From an uncultured Bacteroidia bacterium (lineage in GTDB: Bacteria; Bacteroidota; Bacteroidia; NS11-12g; UBA9320), in NCBI GenBank assembly GCA_905478335.1, contig CAJQIC010000009.1, positions 1 to 64,000 of the forward strand: a stretch of 64,000 nt of DNA, written 5' to 3'. Made by a program: the position numbers and the translations under genes. The notes beneath the pieces are model-generated. The model saw only the letters and a list, made by a program, of their open reading frames with translations, had not been told where the DNA came from and made no database searches. Positions 8,857 to 51,808 of the stretch are shown in pieces. How positions within the stretch are numbered: position 1 is the stretch's first letter; every line of letters starts with the position of its first letter.

Positions 8857-10077
8857 ATGGCTGTAGCAATTAAGTTACCTAAGATGAGTGACACCATGGA
8901 AGAGGGTGTAATCGTATCGTGGCAAGTAAAAGTAGGCGACGAAATTAAGTCTGGGGATATCCTTGCAGAGGTTGAAACCGACAAGGCTACAATGGACTTG
9001 GACAACTACGAAAAAGGTACTGTTCTGCATCTAAATGCAGAAGAAGGCGATACTATTCCTATTGACAGTGTTATTGCCATTGTTGGCACAAAAGGTGAAG
9101 ATTTCGCTGATTTACTAACCGCTGCCCCAGCCGTAAAAGAAGACGCTCCTGCTGAAGAAGAAGTTAAGACTCCTGAAGCACCAACAGCTCAACCAGCAGC
9201 TCCAATTGCTGCGCCTGTTGTGTCTTCGCCTTCAACTTCCAACGGTCGTGTATTAGCGTCTCCTTTAGCCAAAAAAATGGCAGCAGATAAAGGCCTTGAC
9301 ATTAACCAAATTAGTGGTTCAGGTGAAGGTGGACGCGTTGTAAAAAAAGACATTGAAAACTTTACGCCAAGTGTTGGATCTACGGTTACTGGAGTTGAAT
9401 CCTTTACCACGGTTCCTGTTTCGCAAATGCGTAAAACAATTGCAAGACGCTTAGGTGAAAGTAAGTTTACCGCGCCGCATTTCTACTTAACAATGGAAAT
9501 CCGAATGGATAACGCCATTGCGGCTAGAAAGCAAATGAATGAATACTCAGAGGTTAAAATCTCTATGAATGACGTAATTGTTAAAGCCGCATCCATTGCT
9601 TTACAACGTCATCCAAAAATAAACGCAGCATGGATGGGTGACCATATCCGCATGAACAACCATATCCACGTTGGGGTTGCTATGGCTGTTGACGAAGGGT
9701 TATTGGTACCTGTTGTCCGCTTTGCTGATTCAAAATCATTGTCTCAAATTTCGACTGAGGTAAAAGCTTACTCGGTAAAAGCCAAAGACAAAAAACTACA
9801 ACCAAGCGATTGGGAAGGAAACACATTCACCATTTCTAACTTGGGTATGTTTGGCATTGAAGAATTCACTGCCATCATCAATTCTCCAGATGCTTGTATC
9901 ATGGCAGTTGGAGCAGCAAAAGAAACGGTTGTTGTTGACAATGGCGAAATGAAAGTAGGTAACGTAATGAAGGTTACTTTATCATGCGACCACCGTGTTG
10001 TTGACGGCGTTGTAGGCTCTCAATTCTTGCAAACGTTTAAAGCGTTGATGGAGAATCCGGTGAAGTTACTTGTGTAG
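8857..10077 (+). CDS. Pyruvate dehydrogenase complex E2 (dihydrolipoamide acetyltransferase)
   Basis: 406 residues, with domains in order: one lipoyl domain (1-80) with the lipoylated lysine in EVETDKATM; an Ala/Pro/Glu linker (90-125); the E3/E1-binding domain (LASPLAKKMAADKGLDI to GGRVVKKDIENF, about 128-167); and the catalytic acyltransferase domain with LSCDHRVVDGVVG near the end, holding the catalytic His and Asp. The N-terminus (KLPKMSDTMEEG) is typical of pyruvate rather than 2-oxoglutarate E2. E1 and E3 genes are not adjacent. It is read as a single gene from its own -7 box. Confidence 0.92.
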   Translation: MAVAIKLPKMSDTMEEGVIVSWQVKVGDEIKSGDILAEVETDKATMDLDNYEKGTVLHLNAEEGDTIPIDSVIAIVGTKGEDFADLLTAAPAVKEDAPAEEEVKTPEAPTAQPAAPIAAPVVSSPSTSNGRVLASPLAKKMAADKGLDINQISGSGEGGRVVKKDIENFTPSVGSTVTGVESFTTVPVSQMRKTIARRLGESKFTAPHFYLTMEIRMDNAIAARKQMNEYSEVKISMNDVIVKAASIALQRHPKINAAWMGDHIRMNNHIHVGVAMAVDEGLLVPVVRFADSKSLSQISTEVKAYSVKAKDKKLQPSDWEGNTFTISNLGMFGIEEFTAIINSPDACIMAVGAAKETVVVDNGEMKVGNVMKVTLSCDHRVVDGVVGSQFLQTFKALMENPVKLLV

Positions 10078-10082
10078 GCGAT

Positions 10083-10128
10083 AGCTGCTAGCTGTTAGCT
10101 GTTAGCTGTTAGCTGTTAGCTGTTAGCT
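10083..10128. repeat. Heptamer tandem array (AGCTGTT)n
   Basis: About 6.6 copies of AGCTGTT (the first is AGCTGCT), beginning 6 bp after the E2 stop codon. The unit is not a multiple of three and the array is non-coding. The same heptamer and its inverse form the hairpin at 10290-10306. Confidence 0.9.
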
Positions 10129-10289
10129 AAAATCTCATTCTCAAATTCAAACATAAACTAATTGTATTTAGAGGGGCGGGTCATTAGACAAAACATTTCA
10201 TATTCCTTTTCGCCTCCGCCCTTTACCCTCAACCTCCATTCAACCAATGCCTAGGTTGGTTATTCCTGCATATTTGGCGTTATGTTGTT

Positions 10290-10306
10290 TAACAGCTACG
10301 CTGTTA
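10290..10306. repeat. Perfect hairpin TAACAGC-tac-GCTGTTA
   Basis: Seven-base arms with a three-base spacer. The right arm is a rotation of the AGCTGTT heptamer that forms the tandem array 160 bp upstream, so one unit has been placed next to its inverse. Confidence 0.7.
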
Positions 10307-10393
10307 GTCTTCTCAGTTCATTGTTTGAAGTTTTTTTCCTTTACACTCCAACCCCAACTCGACCTAACTTTATTTAGATGAGCGATCGCCAAG

Positions 10394-10414
10394 AGCCAAT
10401 AGACAAAAGCCAAT
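10394..10414. repeat. Degenerate heptamers AGCCAAT-AGACAAA-AGCCAAT
   Basis: Three consecutive seven-base units; the outer two are identical to the unit of the array at 49226-49267. Confidence 0.6.
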
Positions 10415-10473
10415 TCCCGAGATTCTCCTGTCGTCGAACCTGTGAATGACGCGGAGCATAATCCTTCAAACCT

Positions 10474-11592
10474 TTACCCCCTCTTGGCCCAAATCTTTGT
10501 CATAAGAGTCAAGAATAACGCTAGACCTCCAACGATACCAAAAATAAGTACAACTACGGCTAGGGTTTCTTGACCACTGCACGACAACTCGCAGGCCAAT
10601 ATCGCTGTTAAGTACAATATTATAGCCAGCAAAGCCAGTGCTAAAATGGTTAATAGAATGTTTAGAAGAACCTCTTCGGTCTTGGGTTTTTCAAATTCAA
10701 CAATGTTACTATTTTGAGGAACGTTAGTATTGACGGTTAATACATTCGTAATACTTGCACCAACTGAGTCTGAATTAGATTCCTGACTTGAGATATTACC
10801 GAAAGAGGTGAGAAGAGCCAATGTAATGGTTCCAAAAACTAAGTCTTGAATTTTACGTCGCAGCAGACTCGATCTAAACAATTTGAGTTTACTTTTCTTA
10901 CTTGGATAGGCCAGTATGTTCAAGGCTAGAACAACTGATAATATAGCAGTAGTTTTGGCTGAAATAACGTATCCAACGTCTGCTGCCAGCGCCCCCAATT
11001 GCAGACCTATTAATCCTAAAAATACACGAGAAGCAATCAGCATGCCTCGTGCCAACTTCTTATTCTTCTTCGCCCATTCAACATGTTTGCGCAGTTTACC
11101 TCGACCAAGTAACATGAATAATGATATATAGCTTGTTATTGCTGCTGTACCTGCAAGGATCAAACTATTCTTATTTTTCGAGCCATAGTTGGTTACAGTT
11201 GTTTCTTTTGTTTTGGCTCTTGGCGGATGCAGAACATCAATCTCATCAAATTTTGCTTTAGTGTCGCTTGTTCTAATTCTTTTAATTGGATGTTCCGCAG
11301 AAATAGGTTCAAGATGCTTATTAACTTGCAAAACAGGCTGGTACGTATTCTTAAGAGATTGTTGAATTGAGGTCAACTCGCTTAATCCATAAGCGGAATC
11401 TTTCCCCTTCCAAGTTGACACAATATTGTTTGGTAGCCGGCCATGAAAGGGTCTTATAGAATTTACTTTAACGTTTTGATGTTTTTTGGAACCCACCCTA
11501 ATTGTAAGGTGTCCATACCTTCTTTGTGTGCAAGAACTAACAACAATACATACTAATAAAAGAACACTGATTGATAATTGGCTTAGTTTCAT
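10474..11592 (-). CDS. Unknown lipoprotein with several membrane helices
   Basis: 372 residues, not recognised. It starts with a lipoprotein signal (VVSSC, Cys21), then a soluble ~110-residue stretch rich in Lys/Arg and Ser/Thr. Hydrophobic segments follow at about 145-162, 185-205, 210-228, 248-265, 310-335 and 345-365. A signal-peptidase II site followed by multiple transmembrane helices is an odd combination. Its neighbourhood is the most repeat-rich part of the window. No function is proposed. Confidence 0.65.
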   Translation of the reverse strand: MKLSQLSISVLLLVCIVVSSCTQRRYGHLTIRVGSKKHQNVKVNSIRPFHGRLPNNIVSTWKGKDSAYGLSELTSIQQSLKNTYQPVLQVNKHLEPISAEHPIKRIRTSDTKAKFDEIDVLHPPRAKTKETTVTNYGSKNKNSLILAGTAAITSYISLFMLLGRGKLRKHVEWAKKNKKLARGMLIASRVFLGLIGLQLGALAADVGYVISAKTTAILSVVLALNILAYPSKKSKLKLFRSSLLRRKIQDLVFGTITLALLTSFGNISSQESNSDSVGASITNVLTVNTNVPQNSNIVEFEKPKTEEVLLNILLTILALALLAIILYLTAILACELSCSGQETLAVVVLIFGIVGGLALFLTLMTKIWAKRG

Positions 11593-11954
11593 GTCTAAAT
11601 TGTCTTTTGTAGATTACAATGAACCTTGTCCCTTTTGAATGGTAATGGTCATTAAGCTCAAAGGTGCTTTACTTGTGTCTCTCAAAATGATTGAATATTT
11701 CCATTCGGCAAGTTAAGTTACTTCAATCTTACTTTCTCGCTACATATTAAATCGGACTTATCAAATAATGCCAATTACACCCTTGTACATGAGTTAATTT
11801 ACAAATACCGATAATTAGCAGGCCGCATTTGTTCTAAATTAGTTAAAACAGTTAATTACTGTATTGATTTAGTCGTGGTTTCGTTGGATACTGTTTCCGT
11901 GTAAACAGGAATCAGCTGCGCTCCGAATGAATTACTGAACAGCTCCAACTAGGC
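11593..11954. other. Gene-free stretch upstream of the unknown lipoprotein gene
   Basis: AT-rich DNA between the start of the minus-strand lipoprotein gene and the repeat island at 11955-12135. I see no gene, hairpin or clear -7 box in it. It should contain that gene's promoter. Confidence 0.4.
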
Positions 11955-12053
11955 TCTTCAATCCTTCAGACATTGATTTTTAGCCACTTGCCACTAGGAA
12001 TTAGGAGTTAGGAGTTAGTTCACGAAGAAAAGAGAATATAGAACATAGAGAAT
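11955..12053. repeat. Mosaic of short phased repeats with different units
   Basis: Successive short arrays: CTTCAATC/CTTCAGAC (11955-11970), GCCACTT x2 (11983-11996), AGGAATT/AGGAGTT/AGGAGTT (11996-12016) and AGAAAAG/AGAATAT/AGAACAT/AGAGAAT (12026-12053). The unit changes while the seven-base length is mostly kept. Confidence 0.75.
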
Positions 12054-12065
12054 CGACCGTCAATT

Positions 12066-12135
12066 CCTTCAGCCCTTCAATCCTTCAATCCTTCAATCCT
12101 TCAATCCTTCAGACATTCAGACATTCAGACATTCG
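12066..12135. repeat. Octamer tandem array (CCTTCAAT / CATTCAGA)
   Basis: About 8.7 consecutive octamers: CCTTCAGC, four CCTTCAAT, CCTTCAGA, two CATTCAGA and a partial unit. It ends 3 bp from the stop codon of the M1 peptidase gene. Confidence 0.9.
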
Positions 12136-12138
12136 CCC

Positions 12139-15100
12139 CTAACCTCCCTGGGCTAACTTAAATATATCACTCATACTCTTATCCTGCATAAAGTTGAAGT
12201 TTAACTTGAACGTTATGCGTTGACCTAAGTCCTCAATCCCTTGAAGCTTTTGTGCTTCTTTGATCATATTCGAGCTAAATAAAGGCACGTAAATCTCGAT
12301 GAAATCAGGTATCACTTTTACAGCTAATCCACCATTGTAAATAAAAGGCTCTCCTTTTTCAACATTTGGCAAATCCTTCATGTCGTTAAAAGTAAAAGCA
12401 TCAAAATATACACCAAGTGGCAACTTTAATGGCAAATCGGATTTTAAGTTAACCGCCAACGTCCATTGGCTAATATTGGCAAATGTGCCAGGCTCTTTCA
12501 AAAACACGTCGTTCTCTATAACTTGCTGGCTAAACAATCCATCCGTAGCGCCTCTTCCCATAAGGATTTGATCATACGTATAATCCCACTTCCCTGCGCC
12601 AGACTCCATTCTATAGTGGTACAGGCCATTTTCCGCTTCATCCAAAAATGTTCCACCAAAAACCCTGATATCCAATCCTTTACCTTTTAATTTATAGGTA
12701 ATACGTTTCTTATATTCGAGGTTCAACTTGACGTAATTGTCGCCCACTGTTGAGGTAGACAACATATTGGATGAGGTATCAACAACGTGTATGACATTCG
12801 AAGGCATTCCCATCTCCAAGCGCACCGTCCATTGTGATGGATTAATCGTTTTCGCATTTTCAAATCGATACTCGGCCTGAATAAATTTATCTCCTAATTG
12901 CTCGATAACCGTTCGTCGCCCATAGGCCGTTCCAGAATCCTGCAATAAACTATTGATAGACGCGTCTTGATCGAAGTTTGGCGTAAATGATAGTAGCGTT
13001 GACCGTAACGTTAGCCTTGAAGAAATCGGACTGCGTTTATCCGGATTTCTGAAATCAAGTTTAACATACGGCACAATTCGATTGTAACTATATTTTGCAT
13101 CGTCAAAAGCAAATCGAGAACCTTTTACGCCAATCTCAAAAGCACTTAATGCTTTATTCTGTGCCTTCATGTAATGCACATTGGCATACCCATTTACGTC
13201 ACCCGTATTGGGGCTATACAATGGACTTGCCGAAAAGCCAAAATTACGTCTCGGTGTTACCACATTGTTTAACCATAAACCAAACATCATTTTATTGTGG
13301 ATGTTGTAACCGATCAGCGGAAGTACGTTTAATGACGTTCGATTCGGCTCGTGTATAACCGACATAAACTTAACTTCTAGCGGTTCAACCTTTTTAAATA
13401 TTCCTCCGGTTCTAATGGTGTTATTTTGACGGTTTACCTCTGGCATCGTTACATGCGGATCTATTTTAACAACGTCAAAAACGCCCTCAGGCATCTCCAT
13501 AAACAACTCGCCTTCTCCTCCTTGAACCCATATACTTTCCATCATCTCACCGTCTTTGAAGAATCCAACTTCAAATGGCGCAGCCACTCCTCCATTGTTT
13601 TGAACAAACAACTTTCCGTCTTCAATGCGATTCATGGCATAGTCGATATGCGCCTCAGAACCAATTAATCCTTTAAAAAACCAGTTTAAATTTTCTCCTG
13701 ACACACGTTCAAAAACATCTTGAATATCGCCAGGCAACGGGTGCTTAAACTTCCATTCGTTAAAGAGTGCTTTAAAACACGCGTCCACCCCGTCTTGGCT
13801 TAGATAATCTCTTAAATACGCAAACGCATCAGAACCTTTGCCATAAACAATAAGTCCGTAATTCATGTTGGTTAACGCAGCGCTCTTCTCTCCTACCGCT
13901 TGGTGCATCTCTGATGACTCAATCTGTCGGTACCCAAGAGACATGGCTGAACTGTTAAAACCACCTTCATTGAACTTGCGATTTTTCAGCTGAGCTGCCG
14001 GTTTTTCTTTACCGCCATGTATGGCTTCATGTTCGAAATAAGAATTTATTGATTCATCCATCCAAGGATATAAGCGTTCGTTGTTTGCCAAAATCCCATA
14101 AAACCAGTTATGACCAACTTCGTGCACGATAACTTCTTTTCCAAGACTTGCAACAACCGTAATCATTGGATATTCCATTCCACCACCTGCTTTAAGTGCG
14201 CCTTTAACCAAGGTGCAGTGGCTATACGGGTAATAACCACAATGGTCGGAATAGTAATTTAGAGCTGTTTTAATATCGTCTGTGTAATTCAAATTTGTTT
14301 GGTCAGCAAACACATATGCTTTCACTACCTGACCATTGGAAAGTGTTACATCTTCCTGTTTGACATTAAACCTTTTATCGGCAAACCAAGCAAAATCATG
14401 AACATTGTCTTGCACATAGGTTATGGTCTTTTTCTCATCGGCAGTAGGCAACTTTTTTTTGCCTCGAATGGGATTGTTTGTTCTATCAAGTAAAAAATCG
14501 TGCTCCTCTTGTTCTTGCAGTTCTCCTGTTGCAGCCACTACATAATTATCTGGAACAGTAATCTTGACTTCAAATTTGCCAAACTCTGAATAAAACTCCC
14601 CTTGATTCAGATATGGCATTGGGTTCCATCCATTCACATCATAAACAGAAGGTTTAGGGTACCATTGGGTGATCTGATAACTTTGTCCTACGTGGCCAAA
14701 CCGGCTAAAACTTCCTGGAATTTTAACAAAAAATGGCGTTGTAATTTCAACGGATTCACCAGGTTTTAGGTCCCTGTTTAACGTGATTACAGCAATGTCA
14801 ATTTGATTGTTATAGTAAGACCAAGTTGCCTTTTTCCCATTTACCTTAAAATCTAACCGATCAATATATCCGCGAAGCGAGTCATCAGCGAAATGAAACT
14901 TGGTCGACCCATTAGCTACTTGCTGAATAGCAAAATCAGTCAAATCGTCCTTGTATGCATTGGGCCAAATATGAAAATACATCTTGGTTAATGTGTTTGG
15001 ACTGTTATTGGTATATACAAATCGAGCATCACCAGATAAGGTGTGTGCCTTATCATCTAGACTAACATTGATGTAGTAATCACAGCTTTGTTGCCAATCC

Positions 15101-15177
15101 GCTTGTCGAATTTTAGGTTGTGCCGAAACAAAAACAGCAAGACAAATTGAAAGGGTGGTAGTAAATCCAGATTTCAT
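12139..15177 (-). CDS. M1 family metallopeptidase (aminopeptidase N-like), secreted
   Basis: About 1,012 residues from the ATG at 15177. This start is preferred to 15219 because the signal peptide (MKSGFTTTLSICLAVFVSAQ) begins there. The M1 catalytic region is intact: the substrate loop GGGMEYP (near residue 330), zinc site HEVGHNWF (near 350), then DESINSYFEHE with the third zinc ligand Glu. The long C-terminal third carries beta-strand-rich sequence (VYFDAFTFND, FIEIYVPLFSS, ITFKLNFNFMQ), so it could be a membrane-associated barrel-like domain; that is tentative. It ends next to an octamer array. Confidence 0.88.
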   Translation of the reverse strand: MKSGFTTTLSICLAVFVSAQPKIRQADWQQSCDYYINVSLDDKAHTLSGDARFVYTNNSPNTLTKMYFHIWPNAYKDDLTDFAIQQVANGSTKFHFADDSLRGYIDRLDFKVNGKKATWSYYNNQIDIAVITLNRDLKPGESVEITTPFFVKIPGSFSRFGHVGQSYQITQWYPKPSVYDVNGWNPMPYLNQGEFYSEFGKFEVKITVPDNYVVAATGELQEQEEHDFLLDRTNNPIRGKKKLPTADEKKTITYVQDNVHDFAWFADKRFNVKQEDVTLSNGQVVKAYVFADQTNLNYTDDIKTALNYYSDHCGYYPYSHCTLVKGALKAGGGMEYPMITVVASLGKEVIVHEVGHNWFYGILANNERLYPWMDESINSYFEHEAIHGGKEKPAAQLKNRKFNEGGFNSSAMSLGYRQIESSEMHQAVGEKSAALTNMNYGLIVYGKGSDAFAYLRDYLSQDGVDACFKALFNEWKFKHPLPGDIQDVFERVSGENLNWFFKGLIGSEAHIDYAMNRIEDGKLFVQNNGGVAAPFEVGFFKDGEMMESIWVQGGEGELFMEMPEGVFDVVKIDPHVTMPEVNRQNNTIRTGGIFKKVEPLEVKFMSVIHEPNRTSLNVLPLIGYNIHNKMMFGLWLNNVVTPRRNFGFSASPLYSPNTGDVNGYANVHYMKAQNKALSAFEIGVKGSRFAFDDAKYSYNRIVPYVKLDFRNPDKRSPISSRLTLRSTLLSFTPNFDQDASINSLLQDSGTAYGRRTVIEQLGDKFIQAEYRFENAKTINPSQWTVRLEMGMPSNVIHVVDTSSNMLSTSTVGDNYVKLNLEYKKRITYKLKGKGLDIRVFGGTFLDEAENGLYHYRMESGAGKWDYTYDQILMGRGATDGLFSQQVIENDVFLKEPGTFANISQWTLAVNLKSDLPLKLPLGVYFDAFTFNDMKDLPNVEKGEPFIYNGGLAVKVIPDFIEIYVPLFSSNMIKEAQKLQGIEDLGQRITFKLNFNFMQDKSMSDIFKLAQGG

Positions 15178-15247
15178 CGCTAAAAATTTTGTGGGAAAAT
15201 TAAAGATAAAAGCGCTCAATTGTTCCGCATGTTTTGCACGTTTTGTC

Positions 15248-25340: not shown

Positions 25341-25610
25341 AGGGCTTAGCAGCCCTATAACCCGCTCATACTTTTTGAGCGCAAAAAGTAGGCAAAAACG
25401 CTCTCCAGAAATATGCTCCCTCTCTTTCGTCTGCCAAGAAAATCTAAAAAAAGAGTTCAGCCAAACGACTGAAAATCCAAGCACTTTTATTGATTTTCTA
25501 CGGCATCCTCAATTCACCCCGTCGCTTACCCGCATTTCTGTTGGGCCAACACGCTTTAAATAATGCTTGATTTACGACGACCTTTGAAATTCACTCCAGT
25601 GGGCGGATGC
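25341..25610 (+). repeat. Dispersed inverted-repeat element, copy D (right end missing)
   Basis: The left end is clear: hairpin AGGGCT-TAGC-AGCCCT at 25341-25356, then TATAACCCGCTCATACTTTT and ATATGCTCCCT, matching copies B and C. The middle shares ACGACCTTTGAAAT with copy B. It stops at the GGGCGGA word around 25601-25607, so the right arm and its hairpins are absent. An open frame inside it is taken as spurious. Confidence 0.7.
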
Positions 25611-25632
25611 ATGAATTTAACATTAGTGACTT

Positions 25633-25695
25633 TCCGCTATCCGCTGTCAACTATCAATTGTTAATTACTAATTGCTATTTGTCAATTGCTATTTG
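25633..25695. repeat. Degenerate heptamer array overlapping the tamB stop
   Basis: Nine consecutive seven-base words in register: TCCGCTA, TCCGCTG, TCAACTA, TCAATTG, TTAATTA, CTAATTG, CTATTTG, TCAATTG, CTATTTG. The last unit contains the tamB stop codon (25689-25691), so the array reaches into the final codons of the gene. Confidence 0.75.
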
Positions 25696-28600
25696 CCTTT
25701 CTTCTTCCGAAGCCGTATCCGATCAAACTGCTTTCGGAAATAGAATCCAACTCCCGTCGTGGTCACATTGGTTACATCACCTAACGTAGGATCACTGGCT
25801 CTTTTGTGATAAGCCTTCAGTTTGAGTGTGCCATCCTTTTTCACTTTATAGACCAAATCCAGATTATAGGGATCTTTAGCCGCACTGGAATTTGCGTTGT
25901 ATTCAACGGCCAACTCTATACGCTCATTCATCAACTTTCTTCGTGCAGATACAATGAGTTCTGCCCGTTCTTGGTCGGTGATTCCGCTACGGGTTTTGTA
26001 GTCGACCCCTAGTTCTAAGTTTTTATCGTACTCGCTGATCCAATTATTGACTTGATTCGAAAGAAACGTCCCAACACTGGCGCTGACGATGTCTCTATAG
26101 TCGTTTGAGGAAGACAACCCTATCCCAAAATTTGACGCTGGCGAAAAGGAGCCAAACGTGATTAGCGAAAACACCTGCCGATTCATCTCATCAGGGTCGG
26201 CTTCAATTTTTTTCACTAAAGAGTTAAACTCTGTAAACGTGTTTGACGTGATATCTGGGAACTCCCAATCAAATGAGATATCTGGATTAAACAATTCTCC
26301 TTTCAACTTCAACAATACATTCATCTTGATTTGTGTATTATACGCCTCTTCGTTACCGTCCACTAAGCCAATCATGAGGTCTAAAGGATTGGCTCTATTT
26401 CTTGCCACTGCAGCTGCAAGATCAATTTTCGCATTGTATGGGTCCCCATTCCACACGACTTGGCCGCCTGGCCTGATATCAAATTTCTCGCTGACTAACG
26501 TTGGCGATGAAAAAGGATAAATACCCTTAGTGATTTCAAAAACACCATACATAAATAAATCCTCACCTGACGCATATTGAATTTTTACGTTCCCGAATCC
26601 ACTTCCTGTAATTTTATCGTCTAATACTTCATCAAACAACAAGATAAACTCCGCATCCTCGGTTAAATCTATTTCTAACAACATGCTAATCTTTTGGTCA
26701 CTTTCAATTTCTTGTTCTGACTTGACTGCTGAAGTATCATCCTCGTGCTTCTTAAATGTTATGTAATCCTCGTAGGCATTGTCCGAATCATCATAAATAG
26801 GAATGGTGAGTGTAGAACCACGATTCGTTTTGGCTTTTATACTGATTACTAAATCCTCCACTGGCCCTTTAAAATCTGCTCTTCCGGTGGCAAACCCAGT
26901 GCCATAGAATACTTCATTTTGTGCTTTTGTTGTATTCAGCACCATGATGTTGTTGGCTTCTGTCACCGCGACATTCATAACCATATCCGCAAAAAAATCA
27001 TGTTTTATTTGACCACGAACCTTTGCCGTATTACCAAGTTCATCTCTAACAACCAAGCCTCTAAAATCAATTGACTTGTTAGACAAACCGATTTTATCGT
27101 CAACAAAATAACGGGTATTCAAGTAGTCAACAACGATGCTAACTTCATGTGTTTCAATAACGCCTTTAAATTGGGGATCTTCAAATGTGCCCAATAGTCG
27201 AATATTTCCTGACGCGGTCCCATTAAATTCGGAAGCCAAGTCTTTAAATATAGGTTCTAGTGGCTTTATCGCTGCGTCATTGGCCGTTACAATCATGTCC
27301 AAACGTCCGTCTTCCTTCGAAAGGTCCAATGTCCCTTTTGCACTTACGTCTTTCAGCAACCCTTGTTTAACAGTTGCTTCCACATACATTTTTAACGGGT
27401 TTTCTTTGGAACTTGTTTCTATTTCAAAATTCCCAAGGGTATCGCCATTCACGGCAAGGTTTTCTATTTCAATATTTCCTTGAATTACAGGCCTACTCAT
27501 GGCTTGATAAATACTTATTGAATCATCAGACACTCCACCAAGTTCTAATTCCCATTGTTTCAATAAGGGATTAAAACTGCTTAAGTCAAGACGTTTAGTA
27601 TTAATGACCACATGATGGTTCGGCACGTCATCAACAATACCGTTTACGTATAATTTCTGGTTGCCGTGGGTCAACGACAAGTTGGTTAATTCAAGCCCAT
27701 TCCGTGAATACATAGCATGGTTGTCGTTATTGAATCGCCAAGGTTTTTGATCTAGATATAGTTTCGACTCTTCGAGTTGCAACATGATTGAGTCGTTTTG
27801 AAAGGTTAAATTTCCAAATGACCGCAATGCAAGTACATCCGTCGTGTCTGCAAAATCCAATAAAAATTCGAGGTAGTTTGGTAGAATACTCATATTCAGC
27901 ACCAGGTTGTCCGTCACGGTATCTCCTCCATTTTGAACCAGTGTTTTGACATCAGAACTTAAGTTGAGTAGTTGATGCGGACGCTTGCGCACGACCAAAT
28001 CATTGTCGACCAATCGATATTGACCATACTCCAAATAATCAAACAACGCCCTTGATTCTAAACTTTCTTCCTCTGTATTGTAACTAATGACCACCTTGCC
28101 ATTACCCAGTTTCATTGGATAAGGCGTCCAATAATCAATCAGTTCATTGGCTGTGATTTGAAATGCGGCGTTGGCTATAATCTTGTCTTTTAACTCAACA
28201 GAATCATAAAAATCTGGAAACAGCGTATGTAAGAAATCCGTATACACGACGCCAATGTTTTTCAGACTAAACTCTCCTGACAAATTCCCATTAAGGTAAT
28301 CCGAAACCACCGTCAGACTTCGTGACGAATTTGTAATGGCACTGCGCACTTCAAGGTTTTTTAGGTTTAATTCTTGATTATCCCGTTTTACCTGAATGTT
28401 TTGCAGATTGGCATAGCCTTGCATATTATCCGGATCATTTCCGCGCAGTTGAATATCCATTTTCGCGGCGATCTTGGTGTCTATGGTGTCTAGCCCTAGT
28501 GCCTTCAGGTCTATGTTCCCGATATCAGCAGTAAAATCAAACTTAGGCAGTGCGCTTTTAAAATCTATTCTCCCATTAAACACAAATTCCAACTTCTCGT

Positions 28601-35519: not shown

Positions 35520-37391
35520 CTACTTACTTATAAACGCCCCAATAACCGGGCGTGGTCTCTGCATTACGGTGGTTTCACTTTCTGCCGAACAACCTCGCGC
35601 ATCTTTTACCTGTACACTTACCTTATCAATAAGCACCGAGTCTGGCAAATTTGCTACGCCAGTTTTTGTAGCGTCGCCTGTTGACCATAAATAGGTGTAA
35701 GGGGTAGAACCATTCACTACAGAAACCGATAATGTTTTGGGTGTGCCTTGACAAACAAATGTATCAGCGCCATCTGTAAATTTTGCTACCATTACATCTG
35801 TAACAGTTACTGTGTCAAAATATGTGGAAGGGCATTTTTCGCGGTTATTGATTATGTGCTGAATGACATATGTACCGGCTGCTTTAAACTGAATGGTGTC
35901 TTTGGCTGCTCTTGAAACTAATGAATTTGACGAATTAAACTCAGGCAAAATGTCGTCAGGCATTGTTTTGCCATTAATGTCAGTCACCACCCAACTATAT
36001 TGTGGTGTTAACGTACTTGTGGAATCTATCTCACTCTTCACAGCATATTGGCCACAACCTAACGAATCTATGGCAACCACTACCTTTGCCCGAGGCTTTA
36101 CTAGGATTTGTATGGCATAATAGGAAATGGCATTAGCCGGGCAATTGTTGTCATTGATTTTAATGTCAAATTGATAAGGCAACGTACGAGCAGCCCCTGC
36201 CTTTGGCGTCCAACAAAACCTTCCAATTTGGTTAAGTGCCGTATCATTGATTATGCTAAATGTTCCATCAGGTATTCCTCGATTCCAAGAAATTTTAGTG
36301 GAATCTGGATCTGGTTTCGGTTGAGGAGGAGGTGGAATCTTCACTTGGTCTTGTGTTGTAAAGTTTACGCAAAGTGACTTACCTTCGCATACCGAATAAT
36401 GTCTTGCAGCTGCAAGTACTGGTGGATTATTCCCCTTTCCTAACAAGACGGAGTACATCATATCTCTGCGCACCAAACCTATGTTTTGATACTTTCCGTT
36501 AGCGTCTTTCCGCCATTCGCGGACTTCAAATACCATCGTTGTATGTTCGTCACATTTGGTAGGGGTGAAAATCAGTTGGCCCGTTTCCTTATCAAAATAA
36601 AAACCAATCGGCGGAATTGAATTTGGGTTATTGTATGGATATTTAAGTGTTCCTGGGTAATAACTGGTAAATGGCGGAACTGATGTTGTTATAGCGGTGT
36701 TAATTGCACTTTTTGGTTGAACAATTGCATATGACAGCGAGTCACCATCCAGCGTATCAATTGTGCCTACAGAGTAATACACGGGTTGGTTACAAAGAAA
36801 GTTTGGTATTGGTGGAAGTGCAAACTCGGGTGACGAATTTCTCCCTCCATCTTTTAGACTCAGCACGGCATAATTAAACAGGTTTTTGTTTGCTGCACCC
36901 GTCGTTTGTGAAGAATTTCTACAACATAAACCGATCTCGAACCGGATATCAGTGCAGCCAGATTTAATCAGGTTGGCGAATTTCGCAACTCTAAAGTCAA
37001 CGGTATCTCGATACACTTGCACCTCTACTCCGTTGCCACTGCGTGTTTTATTTTTCCCAGAACAATTAGGCCCTAAGGTGTCACATAGCGTTTGCAACTC
37101 TTTGATAGAAACAAGCTTTAAAGACAAATTGACCTTGCTTCCTGACGTCTGGCAAACCACGTTGGCCGCTGATGAAGGGTTATTAAATGTGACCCCAGCA
37201 CATGAGCGGTAGAAAACAAAGTTCACTTCATAGGTCAATGTGTCAATCCAACGGTATGTGATTTCATTGGACGAAACATGGCCTGCTTTTGCCTTAATAG
37301 GGGCCGTAAGGATTAATAAGGTTACTAATCCAACAACTGCTATCTTGTATACGCTCACTAAGCTTTTTTCTTGGTTACTTAAATATGACAC
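35520..37391 (-). CDS. N-terminal half of an amber-split T9SS surface protein
   Basis: 623 residues from a GTG at 37391 (another GTG at 37358 is possible), with a signal peptide (IAVVGLVTLLILTAPIKAKAG). It begins with the HVSSNEITYRWIDTLTYEV domain common in large gliding/adhesin-like Bacteroidota proteins, followed by Cys-pair sandwiches and PKD-like modules (CPSTYFDTVTVTD, SVSVVNGSTPYTYLWSTGD). Translation ends at TAG after GAFISK; sequence resumes in frame as DACGDETVIIEPSV. Without the rest it lacks a sorting domain and would be trapped in the periplasm. Confidence 0.78.
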   Translation of the reverse strand: MSYLSNQEKSLVSVYKIAVVGLVTLLILTAPIKAKAGHVSSNEITYRWIDTLTYEVNFVFYRSCAGVTFNNPSSAANVVCQTSGSKVNLSLKLVSIKELQTLCDTLGPNCSGKNKTRSGNGVEVQVYRDTVDFRVAKFANLIKSGCTDIRFEIGLCCRNSSQTTGAANKNLFNYAVLSLKDGGRNSSPEFALPPIPNFLCNQPVYYSVGTIDTLDGDSLSYAIVQPKSAINTAITTSVPPFTSYYPGTLKYPYNNPNSIPPIGFYFDKETGQLIFTPTKCDEHTTMVFEVREWRKDANGKYQNIGLVRRDMMYSVLLGKGNNPPVLAAARHYSVCEGKSLCVNFTTQDQVKIPPPPQPKPDPDSTKISWNRGIPDGTFSIINDTALNQIGRFCWTPKAGAARTLPYQFDIKINDNNCPANAISYYAIQILVKPRAKVVVAIDSLGCGQYAVKSEIDSTSTLTPQYSWVVTDINGKTMPDDILPEFNSSNSLVSRAAKDTIQFKAAGTYVIQHIINNREKCPSTYFDTVTVTDVMVAKFTDGADTFVCQGTPKTLSVSVVNGSTPYTYLWSTGDATKTGVANLPDSVLIDKVSVQVKDARGCSAESETTVMQRPRPVIGAFISK

Positions 37392-37418: not shown

Positions 37419-37446
37419 AATGTTGAATTTTTAATGTTCAATGTTT
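37419..37446. repeat. Degenerate heptamers AATGTTG-AATTTTT-AATGTTC-AATGTTT
   Basis: Four consecutive seven-base words in register, 28 bp upstream of the T9SS gene start, in the 255-bp gap to fumC. The rest of the gap shows no gene. Confidence 0.55.
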
Positions 37447-37646
37447 ATTACAATTGTATGTCCGCCGTAAACCTAGAGCCGTTTGATGAAGAAAAAAGAG
37501 AAAAAAAGCAACAGCAACAATTTGCTTAATTTGGTTCATAGTCTAAAGTTAGATATAAGTTTATTAAAATGCGCAATGGCCAATTGCGATCTTACTTATA
37601 AAGACACAAATTTCACAAAAAGGTTGCCTAGATTAGGCAAATAGGT

Positions 37647-49225: not shown

Positions 49226-49267
49226 AGCCAATAGCCAATAGCCAATAGCCAATAGCCAATAGCCAAT
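49226..49267. repeat. Heptamer tandem array (AGCCAAT)6
   Basis: Six perfect copies of AGCCAAT that stop exactly at the stop codon of the 12-haem cytochrome gene (49268). The same unit occurs twice at 10394-10414. Confidence 0.92.
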
Positions 49268-51808
49268 TTAAACTCGTTTCCTGCGCATTCTACGAATCAA
49301 CCAAAACAGCAAAAACACACCAAAAAGCACAGCCAACACCTGTGCCCACGCTGCAATTCGCGTTGATTTGTTTAATATTTTATTGTGTCGGTCTTTATCG
49401 ATTTCAATGTCGCTATACTTCGCCACATGACTGAGCAAATCCACAGCGATGCTTTGGTCTGGAACCGTCTGATGACAACTCATACAAACGCCCCTCCTAT
49501 CCAACTTCATCAATTCCTCTTTATTCAGCGGCCTAGATCCAGAAAAATGATGCCCCACAGTCTGCAGCTGATTACCGTCTTCATCAATGATTGCCGACCA
49601 GTCATGCTCTAAATTTTCTATTCTATTAAACTGCGTGTCGACTTGTTTTGCCATCACGCGACCATCAGCAGCTGTTAAATCCATTACAATATTGGAATCA
49701 GGACGGAAGTATAAACTTCCATTTTCAATGCCGTACCCCATGGCTTTTGGGTTCGTATGGCAGCTCTCGCAACTCCGTGCTTTCTTTTGGATTGTATGTG
49801 GCTGAACCGGGCTCATGTCGATAGCATTGATGCCTTCCTCTCCAGCACCTTCAGCATTTTTGATTTTAAAAATGTGGTTCTTTAATAATATTTCTCCGTC
49901 CTCACCTTTTACGGTAACTGTTGTTTGGCAACCTGGGATGGCCGGTGAAATACGATGATCTCCGTTCACAACCAATGGTGGGTCTTCCCATCGTAAATAA
50001 CTGCGCTCTTCTTTTATCTCCCCATTAATCACGTATTCTTCAATGCTGTTCTTTTCACGCTGACTAATCACTTCGCCGGTCTCGCCATTTTCATTTTGCG
50101 TTTTCGCAGCAGCAACCCAATCAAGCTTTTGCTTTCCAGTACTGTAATCTATCTTGATGTGGCAACCATAACATTGTGGCGCCCATGTGGCATGGCACGC
50201 ATAACACTCCATCTTTTCCATATGCAAACCTGTCTGCACCATGGCTACCTTGCCTTCCATCGACAAGGCATCTTCTTTCACTAACTTTTTAAGCGGACTA
50301 AATTCAATGTTTTTCCCGCTCGCAGAAAACAACACGACTTTGTTCCCTTGTTTAACCACGTGCGGCATTGGATTCCCACGCGCGCTTAACAAATAGCCAT
50401 CTAGTTTGTCGTTGACGGAGCCGTACGTTAGATACGTCGGCAACTCCTCTGCGACTCCTCTAGCATCGCCTGTTTGAGGCGCCTCTCCTGCGATTTCGTC
50501 ACCATAGCCAATCGGCAATTCCCATGGATACTGATTGGGCGTACCGTGGCAATCTTGGCATTCTATTTCTACTGCGCCTTGGATGGCTCCAGACAAATCA
50601 CCCAAGCTGTGAATATCACCTGACGTATGACAATCTTGACAAAACATACCCTTTTTTAAATGGACGTCGCTTTGTAAATGGATGTAATTCTTTTTATGGA
50701 TTTTCTCCTGATCGCCGCCAGTTCCCATATATGGCGAATGATATCCTGACTCCATTAATCCTTCATAACTTACCCCAATTCGTCTACCGCGATTGTGACA
50801 GGCTGTACATGTTTTGGTAGGCACGCCACTATATTCTTGATCGTGCACCTTCACTTTGGCATCCCGACTCGCTTGAAAACTATGTACCAGCATGTGGCCC
50901 GCTTCTGTCTTGTCGATGGTTGGGTCATCTCCTTCATACAAACCGTTGTTTGAATAGGGAGAATGACAGCTACTACAACCTATTCCGCGGTAATCTCCTT
51001 TTGCGTTGTGTCCTTTGACCCCCGTGTGGCATCGTTGACAATCTTGCCTTAGGTACGTATACACCGAAAGTTTAGGATTAATCTTCACCTGCTCTGCGGT
51101 TGGTGCTTCAGGCAAAGCCGTCATTTTTCCAGGAAAAACCTGAGGCTCCGCTTTTTTAAGCTCCGCCATGTATTGTTTGTAAATGTCTGAGCCTAATCTG
51201 TCGTGCACTTCCAACTCGTCTACTTCCTGATTGGCCACATTGTGGTCGTATCCTTGGAGACCGCCAAACCCCCATGTGGTTCCTTGAATTTTACCAGCTT
51301 CTGTAAACATCAAACTGGTAAACTGTGTGCTCACTTGTTCTTGGTGACACATTCCACATGTATTTTGGTTGATGTAAGGGCTTCCAGGATCAGGATAAAA
51401 AGCTTTTGGCCCTTCCTTGGCTAGGAAATAATCGATCGAACCATCATGAGCAGCATTCGCTGTTGTTGCTTCTGGATTTCCACCATGGCAAACGATACAA
51501 CTATTGTCCTTATAGCCAGCCAATTCTGCTTTTTCGAAGATTTCGTGCATCATCTCTGACTTCAAAGACCGAATATGCTCAATCCCATCGTGACACGTTA
51601 GGCACTTATTGTTCGTCGGGTCGTAGACAACTTCATCTAAATCTGACTCATAACTTTTAGGACAGACTTGAGGTTCAGATTGGGTTATGACTTGTTCCGC
51701 AGGCTTAGCACAATTCCAATTGCTCAGCACGCTTAAGGTTAGCCCGCTAACAACAAACACCGCAATTGCTAACTTCTTTTTAGAAAAATGCTTTCGCCCT
51801 AACCCCAT
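49268..51808 (-). CDS. Twelve-haem cytochrome c, membrane-anchored
   Basis: 846 residues with twelve C-x2-C-H haem sites: CLTCH, CIVCH, CGMCH, CQRCH, CSSCH, CTACH, CQDCH twice, CYACH, CYGCH, CESCH and CMSCH, spread from about residue 60 to 795. An N-terminal hydrophobic segment (AIAVFVVSGLTLSVL) and a C-terminal one (WAQVLAVLFGVFLLFWLI) followed by RRMRRKRV suggest anchoring, with the haem domain extracytoplasmic. Likely an electron carrier or oxidoreductase; the substrate cannot be read from sequence. The gene starts 48 bp after the HmuY lipoprotein gene on the same strand. Confidence 0.88.
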   Translation of the reverse strand: MGLGRKHFSKKKLAIAVFVVSGLTLSVLSNWNCAKPAEQVITQSEPQVCPKSYESDLDEVVYDPTNNKCLTCHDGIEHIRSLKSEMMHEIFEKAELAGYKDNSCIVCHGGNPEATTANAAHDGSIDYFLAKEGPKAFYPDPGSPYINQNTCGMCHQEQVSTQFTSLMFTEAGKIQGTTWGFGGLQGYDHNVANQEVDELEVHDRLGSDIYKQYMAELKKAEPQVFPGKMTALPEAPTAEQVKINPKLSVYTYLRQDCQRCHTGVKGHNAKGDYRGIGCSSCHSPYSNNGLYEGDDPTIDKTEAGHMLVHSFQASRDAKVKVHDQEYSGVPTKTCTACHNRGRRIGVSYEGLMESGYHSPYMGTGGDQEKIHKKNYIHLQSDVHLKKGMFCQDCHTSGDIHSLGDLSGAIQGAVEIECQDCHGTPNQYPWELPIGYGDEIAGEAPQTGDARGVAEELPTYLTYGSVNDKLDGYLLSARGNPMPHVVKQGNKVVLFSASGKNIEFSPLKKLVKEDALSMEGKVAMVQTGLHMEKMECYACHATWAPQCYGCHIKIDYSTGKQKLDWVAAAKTQNENGETGEVISQREKNSIEEYVINGEIKEERSYLRWEDPPLVVNGDHRISPAIPGCQTTVTVKGEDGEILLKNHIFKIKNAEGAGEEGINAIDMSPVQPHTIQKKARSCESCHTNPKAMGYGIENGSLYFRPDSNIVMDLTAADGRVMAKQVDTQFNRIENLEHDWSAIIDEDGNQLQTVGHHFSGSRPLNKEELMKLDRRGVCMSCHQTVPDQSIAVDLLSHVAKYSDIEIDKDRHNKILNKSTRIAAWAQVLAVLFGVFLLFWLIRRMRRKRV

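Follow-up and report, generated by a model that had tools for sequence, protein, structure and literature searches.

Tandem arrays of 7- and 8-bp units with a common strand polarity in the intergenic DNA of an uncultured Bacteroidia bacterium

Why do short tandem arrays of 7 to 8 bp lie next to the stop codons of several genes in this DNA? To our knowledge, intergenic heptameric repeats have been known for years in Cyanobacteria, Xanthomonas, Beggiatoaceae and Bacteroidetes, and there is no agreed function for them. We analyzed a stretch of 64,000 bp (bases 1–64000 of contig C9; hereafter the window), which is part of a 2.78-Mb assembly of 74 contigs. The arrays in the window were located by TRF and by reading of the sequence. 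The names of the E2, Peptidase_M1, TamB and multihaem cytochrome genes were confirmed by Pfam; ORF calls were mechanical. The features are as follows.

10075–10077, plus strand: stop codon TAG of E2 (sequence, phase test).
10082–10128, plus strand: heptamer array TAGCTGT/TTAGCTG, 6.7 copies (TRF, sequence).
11957–11974, plus strand: two octamers, TTCAATCC TTCAGACA (sequence).
11983–12018, plus strand: heptamers GCCACTA GGAATTAGGAGTTAGGAGTTAG, TTAGNNN class (TRF, sequence).
12066–12134, minus strand: octamer array MTTCANNC, with TTCAATCC five times and TTCAGACA three times on the plus strand (TRF, sequence).
25630–25696, minus strand: degenerate heptamers enclosing the tamB stop codon at 25689–25691 (sequence, ortholog comparison).
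37419–37447, plus strand: weak heptamer array AATGTTC, four copies, 80% matches (TRF, sequence).
49226–49267, plus strand: (AGCCAAT)6 adjoining the stop of the multihaem cytochrome at 49268 (gene 49268–51808, minus strand) (TRF, sequence).

The first array begins 4–5 bp past the E2 stop, and this TAG is 7 bp ahead of the first TAG of the array (10082–10084), that is, in phase with it. Between 11957 and 12018 two octamers are followed by TTAGGAG heptamers. The octamers at 12066–12134 stop 4 bp short of the M1-peptidase stop (12139–12141; gene 12139–15219, minus strand), and the sense units around the tamB stop are CAATTGA, CAAATAG, CAATTAG, TAATTAA, CAATTGA and TAGTTGA. A sequence-only reading had listed these arrays at gene ends, and they are present as it described them, with two exceptions: the array at 37419–37447 has no stop beside it but a called start (gene 35520–37391, minus strand), from which it is 28 bp upstream, and no array was detected by TRF at 10394–10414.

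We extended the search to 937 kb of the same genome, taken as stretches with the window included (a further 381 kb was added later), and to 640 kb and 452 kb of two congeners, G004 and G001. Four congeners were found (G001–G004), and orthologous gaps were compared in G001, G002 and G004. The nearest relative among the genomes compared is G001, the MAG 'Bacteroidetes bacterium bin.63' (contig JAIBDD010000018), whose stretches were picked partly for octamer matches. The samples cover less than half of each genome, and many stretches begin at contig ends. The array counts below treat each array separately, and arrays within one family are non-independent.

The arrays are a real, genome-wide feature. 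In the 937 kb there were 27 perfect runs with 7-bp units and 26 with 8-bp units, no other period from 2 to 13 had more than four, and the shuffled control had none. In a search that tolerated mismatches, intergenic DNA had 24 arrays of heptamers and 16 of octamers, and coding DNA had 0 and 2, respectively (40/42 intergenic); multiples of 7 and 8 were the next most frequent periods. They are of a kind already described, intergenic heptameric tandem repeats, since 7-bp units, an excess in non-coding DNA, a deficit in divergent gaps and variation between relatives were all found. Octamers are as common as heptamers here, which widens the definition of that kind. The period peaks of G004 are at 6, 7 and 8, and the dominant array unit on its contig C5 is the 6-bp GTTGAA, with 11 sites. 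Thus, the preferred unit length differs within one genus.

Arrays occur in 26% of the convergent gaps of the own genome and 32% of those of G004, in 7% of tandem gaps and in 3–5% of divergent gaps, so their frequency is about 10 times higher in convergent than in divergent gaps. The fraction of bases in arrays was flat from 0 to 400 bp past stops (5–8%, own genome) and was 0.2–1% within 50 bp of starts. When arrays were shifted circularly within their gaps, contacts with stops showed no excess in the own genome (22 vs. 20.5 expected, P = 0.40) or in G004 (16 vs. 14.6 expected, P = 0.37). However, contacts with starts were below expectation in both (2 vs. 7.3, P = 0.004, and 1 vs. 6.4, P = 0.002). 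Attraction to stop codons is therefore ruled out; the arrays seem to abut stops because starts are avoided, not because stops are sought. The sequence-only reading had tied the arrays to stop codons and had named a lack of enrichment near stops across the genome as the observation that would speak against this. Contacts at the chance level are what was found, and this proposal is refuted.

Unexpectedly, the two strands of an array are oriented relative to the genes: the one richer in G, which usually has TGA, TAG or TAA in all three frames, leads away from the nearer ORF. This strand polarity was first noticed after looking at the data and was then checked in new sequence. Among arrays not more than 15 bp from a stop, the sense strand, as defined by the upstream gene, was the richer one in stop triplets by 20:1 in the discovery set and, in small replication sets, by 2:0 in new sequence of the own genome, 9:2 in G001 and 12:4 in G004. 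On this strand G also exceeded C, by 49:12 in the pooled data. The polarity is independent of gene direction: when all arrays were considered, the nearer ORF was 5' of the G-rich strand by 46:20 (own genome), 17:2 (G001) and 31:17 (G004); the polarity is weaker in G004 (P = 0.059), where many words are strand-symmetric. The few arrays near starts also obeyed it (8:2, 4:0 and 5:3 in the same order).

In gaps with at least two oriented arrays, the outermost ones faced inward in 20 cases (7 + 5 + 8) and outward in none, and these inward-facing pairs use many different combinations of left and right words. In the convergent gaps of the discovery set the polarity held on both sides (5:0 left, 9:1 right). 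Because it is mirrored across these gaps, replication direction is excluded as its cause. An artefact of ORF calling, in which arrays that lack stops would be read through into genes, is also rejected as the main cause, since a looser detector placed only 1/79, 0/22 and 6/62 arrays of the three genome sets within called ORFs. In the window, the G-rich, stop-bearing strand of the array at 12066–12134 (GGATTGAA) points away from the M1-peptidase stop. The TTAGCCA/AATAGCC class fits the polarity poorly, and the array at 49226–49267, which belongs to it, is an exception when judged by stop triplets. Among 16 arrays in 951 kb of other Bacteroidota loci we found no polarity (7:8), and thus it is not universal.

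Our leading reading of the polarity, unproven and with a probability of roughly 40%, is that the arrays may act as two-way Rho-dependent insulators, termination being judged from base composition. The arrays would arise through slippage by whole units and through the spread of pre-formed arrays, and their polarity would be retained for the two-way insulation that it provides. A transcript leaving one gene would first meet stops in every frame, by which its RNA would be freed of ribosomes. The RNA would then become C-rich, G-poor and unstructured just ahead of the neighbouring gene, forming a rut-like segment at which Rho could end read-through or antisense transcription. A Rho gene is present in the genome.

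The composition of the RNA that runs through an array towards an ORF is consistent with this. It had 0.165, 0.171 and 0.134 YC per nucleotide in the three species, compared with 0.080, 0.080 and 0.088 at array-free stops, and its C minus G per 60 nt was +8.5, +8.7 and +6.9, compared with about 0. C outnumbered G by at least 8 per 60 bases at 57–61% of array ends and at 5–9% of array-free stops. The RNA entering genes thus has the C-rich, G-poor, unstructured composition of rut sites, whereas the opposite strand does not; a rut that would act on sense transcripts from the upstream gene is ruled out, since the sense strand is G-rich. The spacing of YC in the arrays matches no fixed rut rule. In B. 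subtilis, rut sites are YC-rich, have more U/C than G, are unstructured and are mostly antisense to genes (PMC12350095), and those of E. coli are C-rich and G-poor (PMC9160355).

The arrays resemble rut sites and Rho-dependent terminators in that the gene-ward RNA is C-rich, G-poor and YC-rich, lacks structure and is antisense to the gene beside it. The arrays differ in being tandem repeats, a form that rut sites are not known to take. Hairpin (intrinsic) terminators are ruled out: convergent gaps with arrays had no more hairpin structure than gaps without arrays, and a hairpin with a T run stood at only 2 of 58 array stops, compared with 8.5 expected from length-matched controls (Poisson P ~0.009). 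The suggestion that the arrays have a termination function at 3' ends does not hold for the stop codon itself; for transcription, it is supported indirectly by the polarity and by how few intrinsic terminators there are. Polarity across words without G-quadruplexes, together with this shortage, makes a specific and cheap test of Rho-dependent termination possible, and two array units can be compared as RNA for Rho binding, (UUCAAUCC)n and (GGAUUGAA)n. If Rho-dependent termination fails, the case becomes stronger for slippage by whole units with selection acting as a filter.

The units of the arrays had been described as unrelated; in fact, a few degenerate words, shared across many loci, underlie them, and the units are variants of these in the same phase. 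The 22 octamer sites have only 7 words among them (20.4 expected) and the 29 heptamer sites have 18 (28.2 expected). The octamer class MTTCANNC includes TTCAATCC, TTCAGACA and TTCACTCA; the heptamer class YTGANAR includes TTGATAG, TTGAGAG and TTGAAAA; the TTAGNNN class includes TTAGCTG, TTAGGAG and TTAGCCA/ATAGCCA; and there are GACTNAG-like and GAAYATA-like classes. In octamer arrays, variation at positions 5, 6 and 8 is about threefold that at the remaining positions, and the same goes for positions 5 and 7 of TTGANAR heptamers; since copies share ancestry, the computed P values are too small. One composite heptamer phrase has 18 occurrences in the own genome and two in G004. Mobile elements of the MITE/REP type have fixed boundaries and a sequence conserved among copies; here composite phrases do recur, with matches that end at varying positions and with differing words. 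Internal duplications of about 200 bp that contain arrays and unique sequence were seen in the gaps L119:2111-2736, L119:5589-6003 and L124:8821-9408, which suggests recombination between arrays. The unit length is indeed kept (7 or 8, and also 6 in one congener), and the view that no one mobile sequence explains the arrays is supported.

The same sites differ between congeners. At the cytochrome stop, G001 has eight perfect AGCCAAT units and a GGAGTTAG besides, compared with six units in the window, in flanking DNA of about 81% identity, and the orthologous gaps of G002 and G004 have no AGCCAAT array. In the gap between E2 and M1, TTCAATCC and TTCAGACA occur once and twice in G001 and five and three times in the window. 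This gap in G001 is without the heptamer array at 10082–10128 (AGCTGTT in another phase), which is missing together with about 1.9 kb that includes an ORF. Around 37.4 kb, G004 has an octamer array of ATTCTATA at the site of the window's heptamers, and at the tamB site related heptamers are found in the window and G004 and none in G001. We found no arrays in 80 kb of G002. Such copy-number differences at one site (6 vs. 8 AGCCAAT; TTCAATCC five times vs. once) make the slippage-type process that had been proposed plausible, and turnover this fast means that the arrays cannot be essential. In congeners without the arrays, the E2, M1 and cytochrome proteins end at the same place or within a few codons of it, which does not support arrays as a source of new gene ends. 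In Bacteroidia, a TTGANAR heptamer array was found in 28/295 genomes and 18/155 genera, and three-copy AGCCAAT arrays in 3/395 genomes. Among 149 genomes searched, the octamer array proper was confined to the own genome; two other matches were essentially TTCA tetranucleotide runs.

Neutral slippage and spread, to which we give weight equal to that of the insulator, could well explain everything except the polarity among different words. Polymerase slippage in steps of 7–8 nt and recombination between arrays would multiply words in unconstrained DNA, and purifying selection would clear them from genes, promoters and ribosome-binding sites. The differences in copy number and word between congeners, the recurring composite phrases and the array-bearing duplications all agree with this, and so does the avoidance of starts and divergent gaps with no part of the 3' flank avoided. 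Slippage related to the polymerase footprint is an earlier hypothesis for heptamers, cited in PMC4692102. The polarity, which slippage alone does not predict, might then be a by-product of composite phrases (TTGA... ...TCAA), whose reverse complement faces inward equally. However, 20:0 inward with many word pairs, and with other words in G004, argues against one ancestral phrase. Units also vary at fixed positions with a core kept (TTCA..C.,.TGA.A.), an objection that the shared ancestry of units weakens.

It is improbable that the arrays are translational safety stops, in which one stop triplet per unit catches ribosomes that have read through or shifted frame past the gene. A unit of 7 or 8 bp is not divisible by 3, so that its stop triplet falls in all three frames, and for arrays not more than 15 bp from a stop this was so on the sense strand in 21/24 and on the antisense strand in 5/24. 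The real stop shared the phase of the array in more cases than expected in four sets (8 vs. 3.6, 2 vs. 0.3, 4 vs. 1.6 and 5 vs. 2.6), an excess that comes mostly from arrays containing the stop. However, the start ends show the same polarity (G > C away from the gene in 17, toward it in 5), where it has no translational meaning. The conserved positions of the units reach beyond the stop triplet, the hexamers of G004 are a multiple of 3, genes already end in a stop, and back-up stops are not enriched after array-free stops (0.065 vs. 0.072).

For the TAACTGA repeats of Beggiatoaceae, MacGregor proposed that a regulator binds them. If the arrays were sites for such a dedicated DNA- or RNA-binding protein, this would account for a degenerate consensus with fixed core positions and for words reused between loci, but it is very improbable here, because the arrays lie downstream of genes and are depleted at starts, the reverse of Beggiatoaceae (mostly just upstream of starts, PMC4679880), and congeners differ in words and unit length.

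Rehm et al. (2015, PMC4692102) reported the same polarity for GGGAATC heptamers in Xanthomonas and Nostoc. The GGGAATC and GGGGA(C/T)T repeats of these bacteria are also 7-bp intergenic units that are rarer between divergent ORFs, lie on the coding strand near stops and on the non-coding strand near starts, and differ in length between relatives in the same gap. However, they are G-run repeats forming G-quadruplexes, whereas the words of the window genome are mostly AT-rich, without G runs and many per genome, with 8-bp units as often as 7 and with inward-facing pairs. The dominant words TTCAATCC, TTGATAG, AGCCAAT and TTAGCTG have no GGG on either strand and so lack what defines G-quadruplex heptamers. 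Since most words are without a run of three G, G-quadruplexes are not needed for the polarity. Given the published data, we regard it as possible, if unlikely, that one polarity rule holds across Bacteroidota, Xanthomonas and Nostoc, and that it reflects repeat-built bidirectional Rho-dependent insulators between genes with a sequence-independent function. If true, this would supply one shared function for bacterial heptameric repeats, which have long gone unexplained.

The TAACTGA repeats of Beggiatoaceae, Cyanobacteria and some Bacteroidetes (MacGregor 2015, PMC4679880) are likewise intergenic heptamers, patchy across phyla, often mixed with other heptamers and subject to 7-nt indels between strains. 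Those of Beggiatoaceae lie just upstream of start codons, whereas starts are avoided in the window genome, and TAACTGA is absent from the 18 perfect-array heptamer words of our sample. The Class I (TDNGATT) and Class II (NNTGAGT) repeats of the Nostoc tRNA-Leu intron (PMC4476775) are also degenerate heptamers with a fixed core whose units are gained and lost. However, their place is in a group I intron, where they make up the paired P6b stem, whereas the arrays studied here are intergenic and have no excess of structure.

Several other observations concern the gaps themselves. The convergent E2–M1 gap (10078–12020) is an insertion hot spot: it measures about 1.9 kb in the window and about 100 bp in G001, and it holds about 7 kb of other DNA in G002 and about 3.8 kb in G004. 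The ORF at 10474–11592 in this gap encodes 372 aa and has no Pfam match. In the gap before the tamB stop, a block at 25343–25591 has two more copies elsewhere on the G001 contig (75–79% identity) and is a dispersed intergenic repeat without short-period structure. In the E2–M1 gap of G004 (end of contig C6, L190), repeated inverted units CACTCGGC ... GCCGAGTG flank TTTACAT/TTTTCAT heptamers, and these inverted units are perhaps another dispersed intergenic element.
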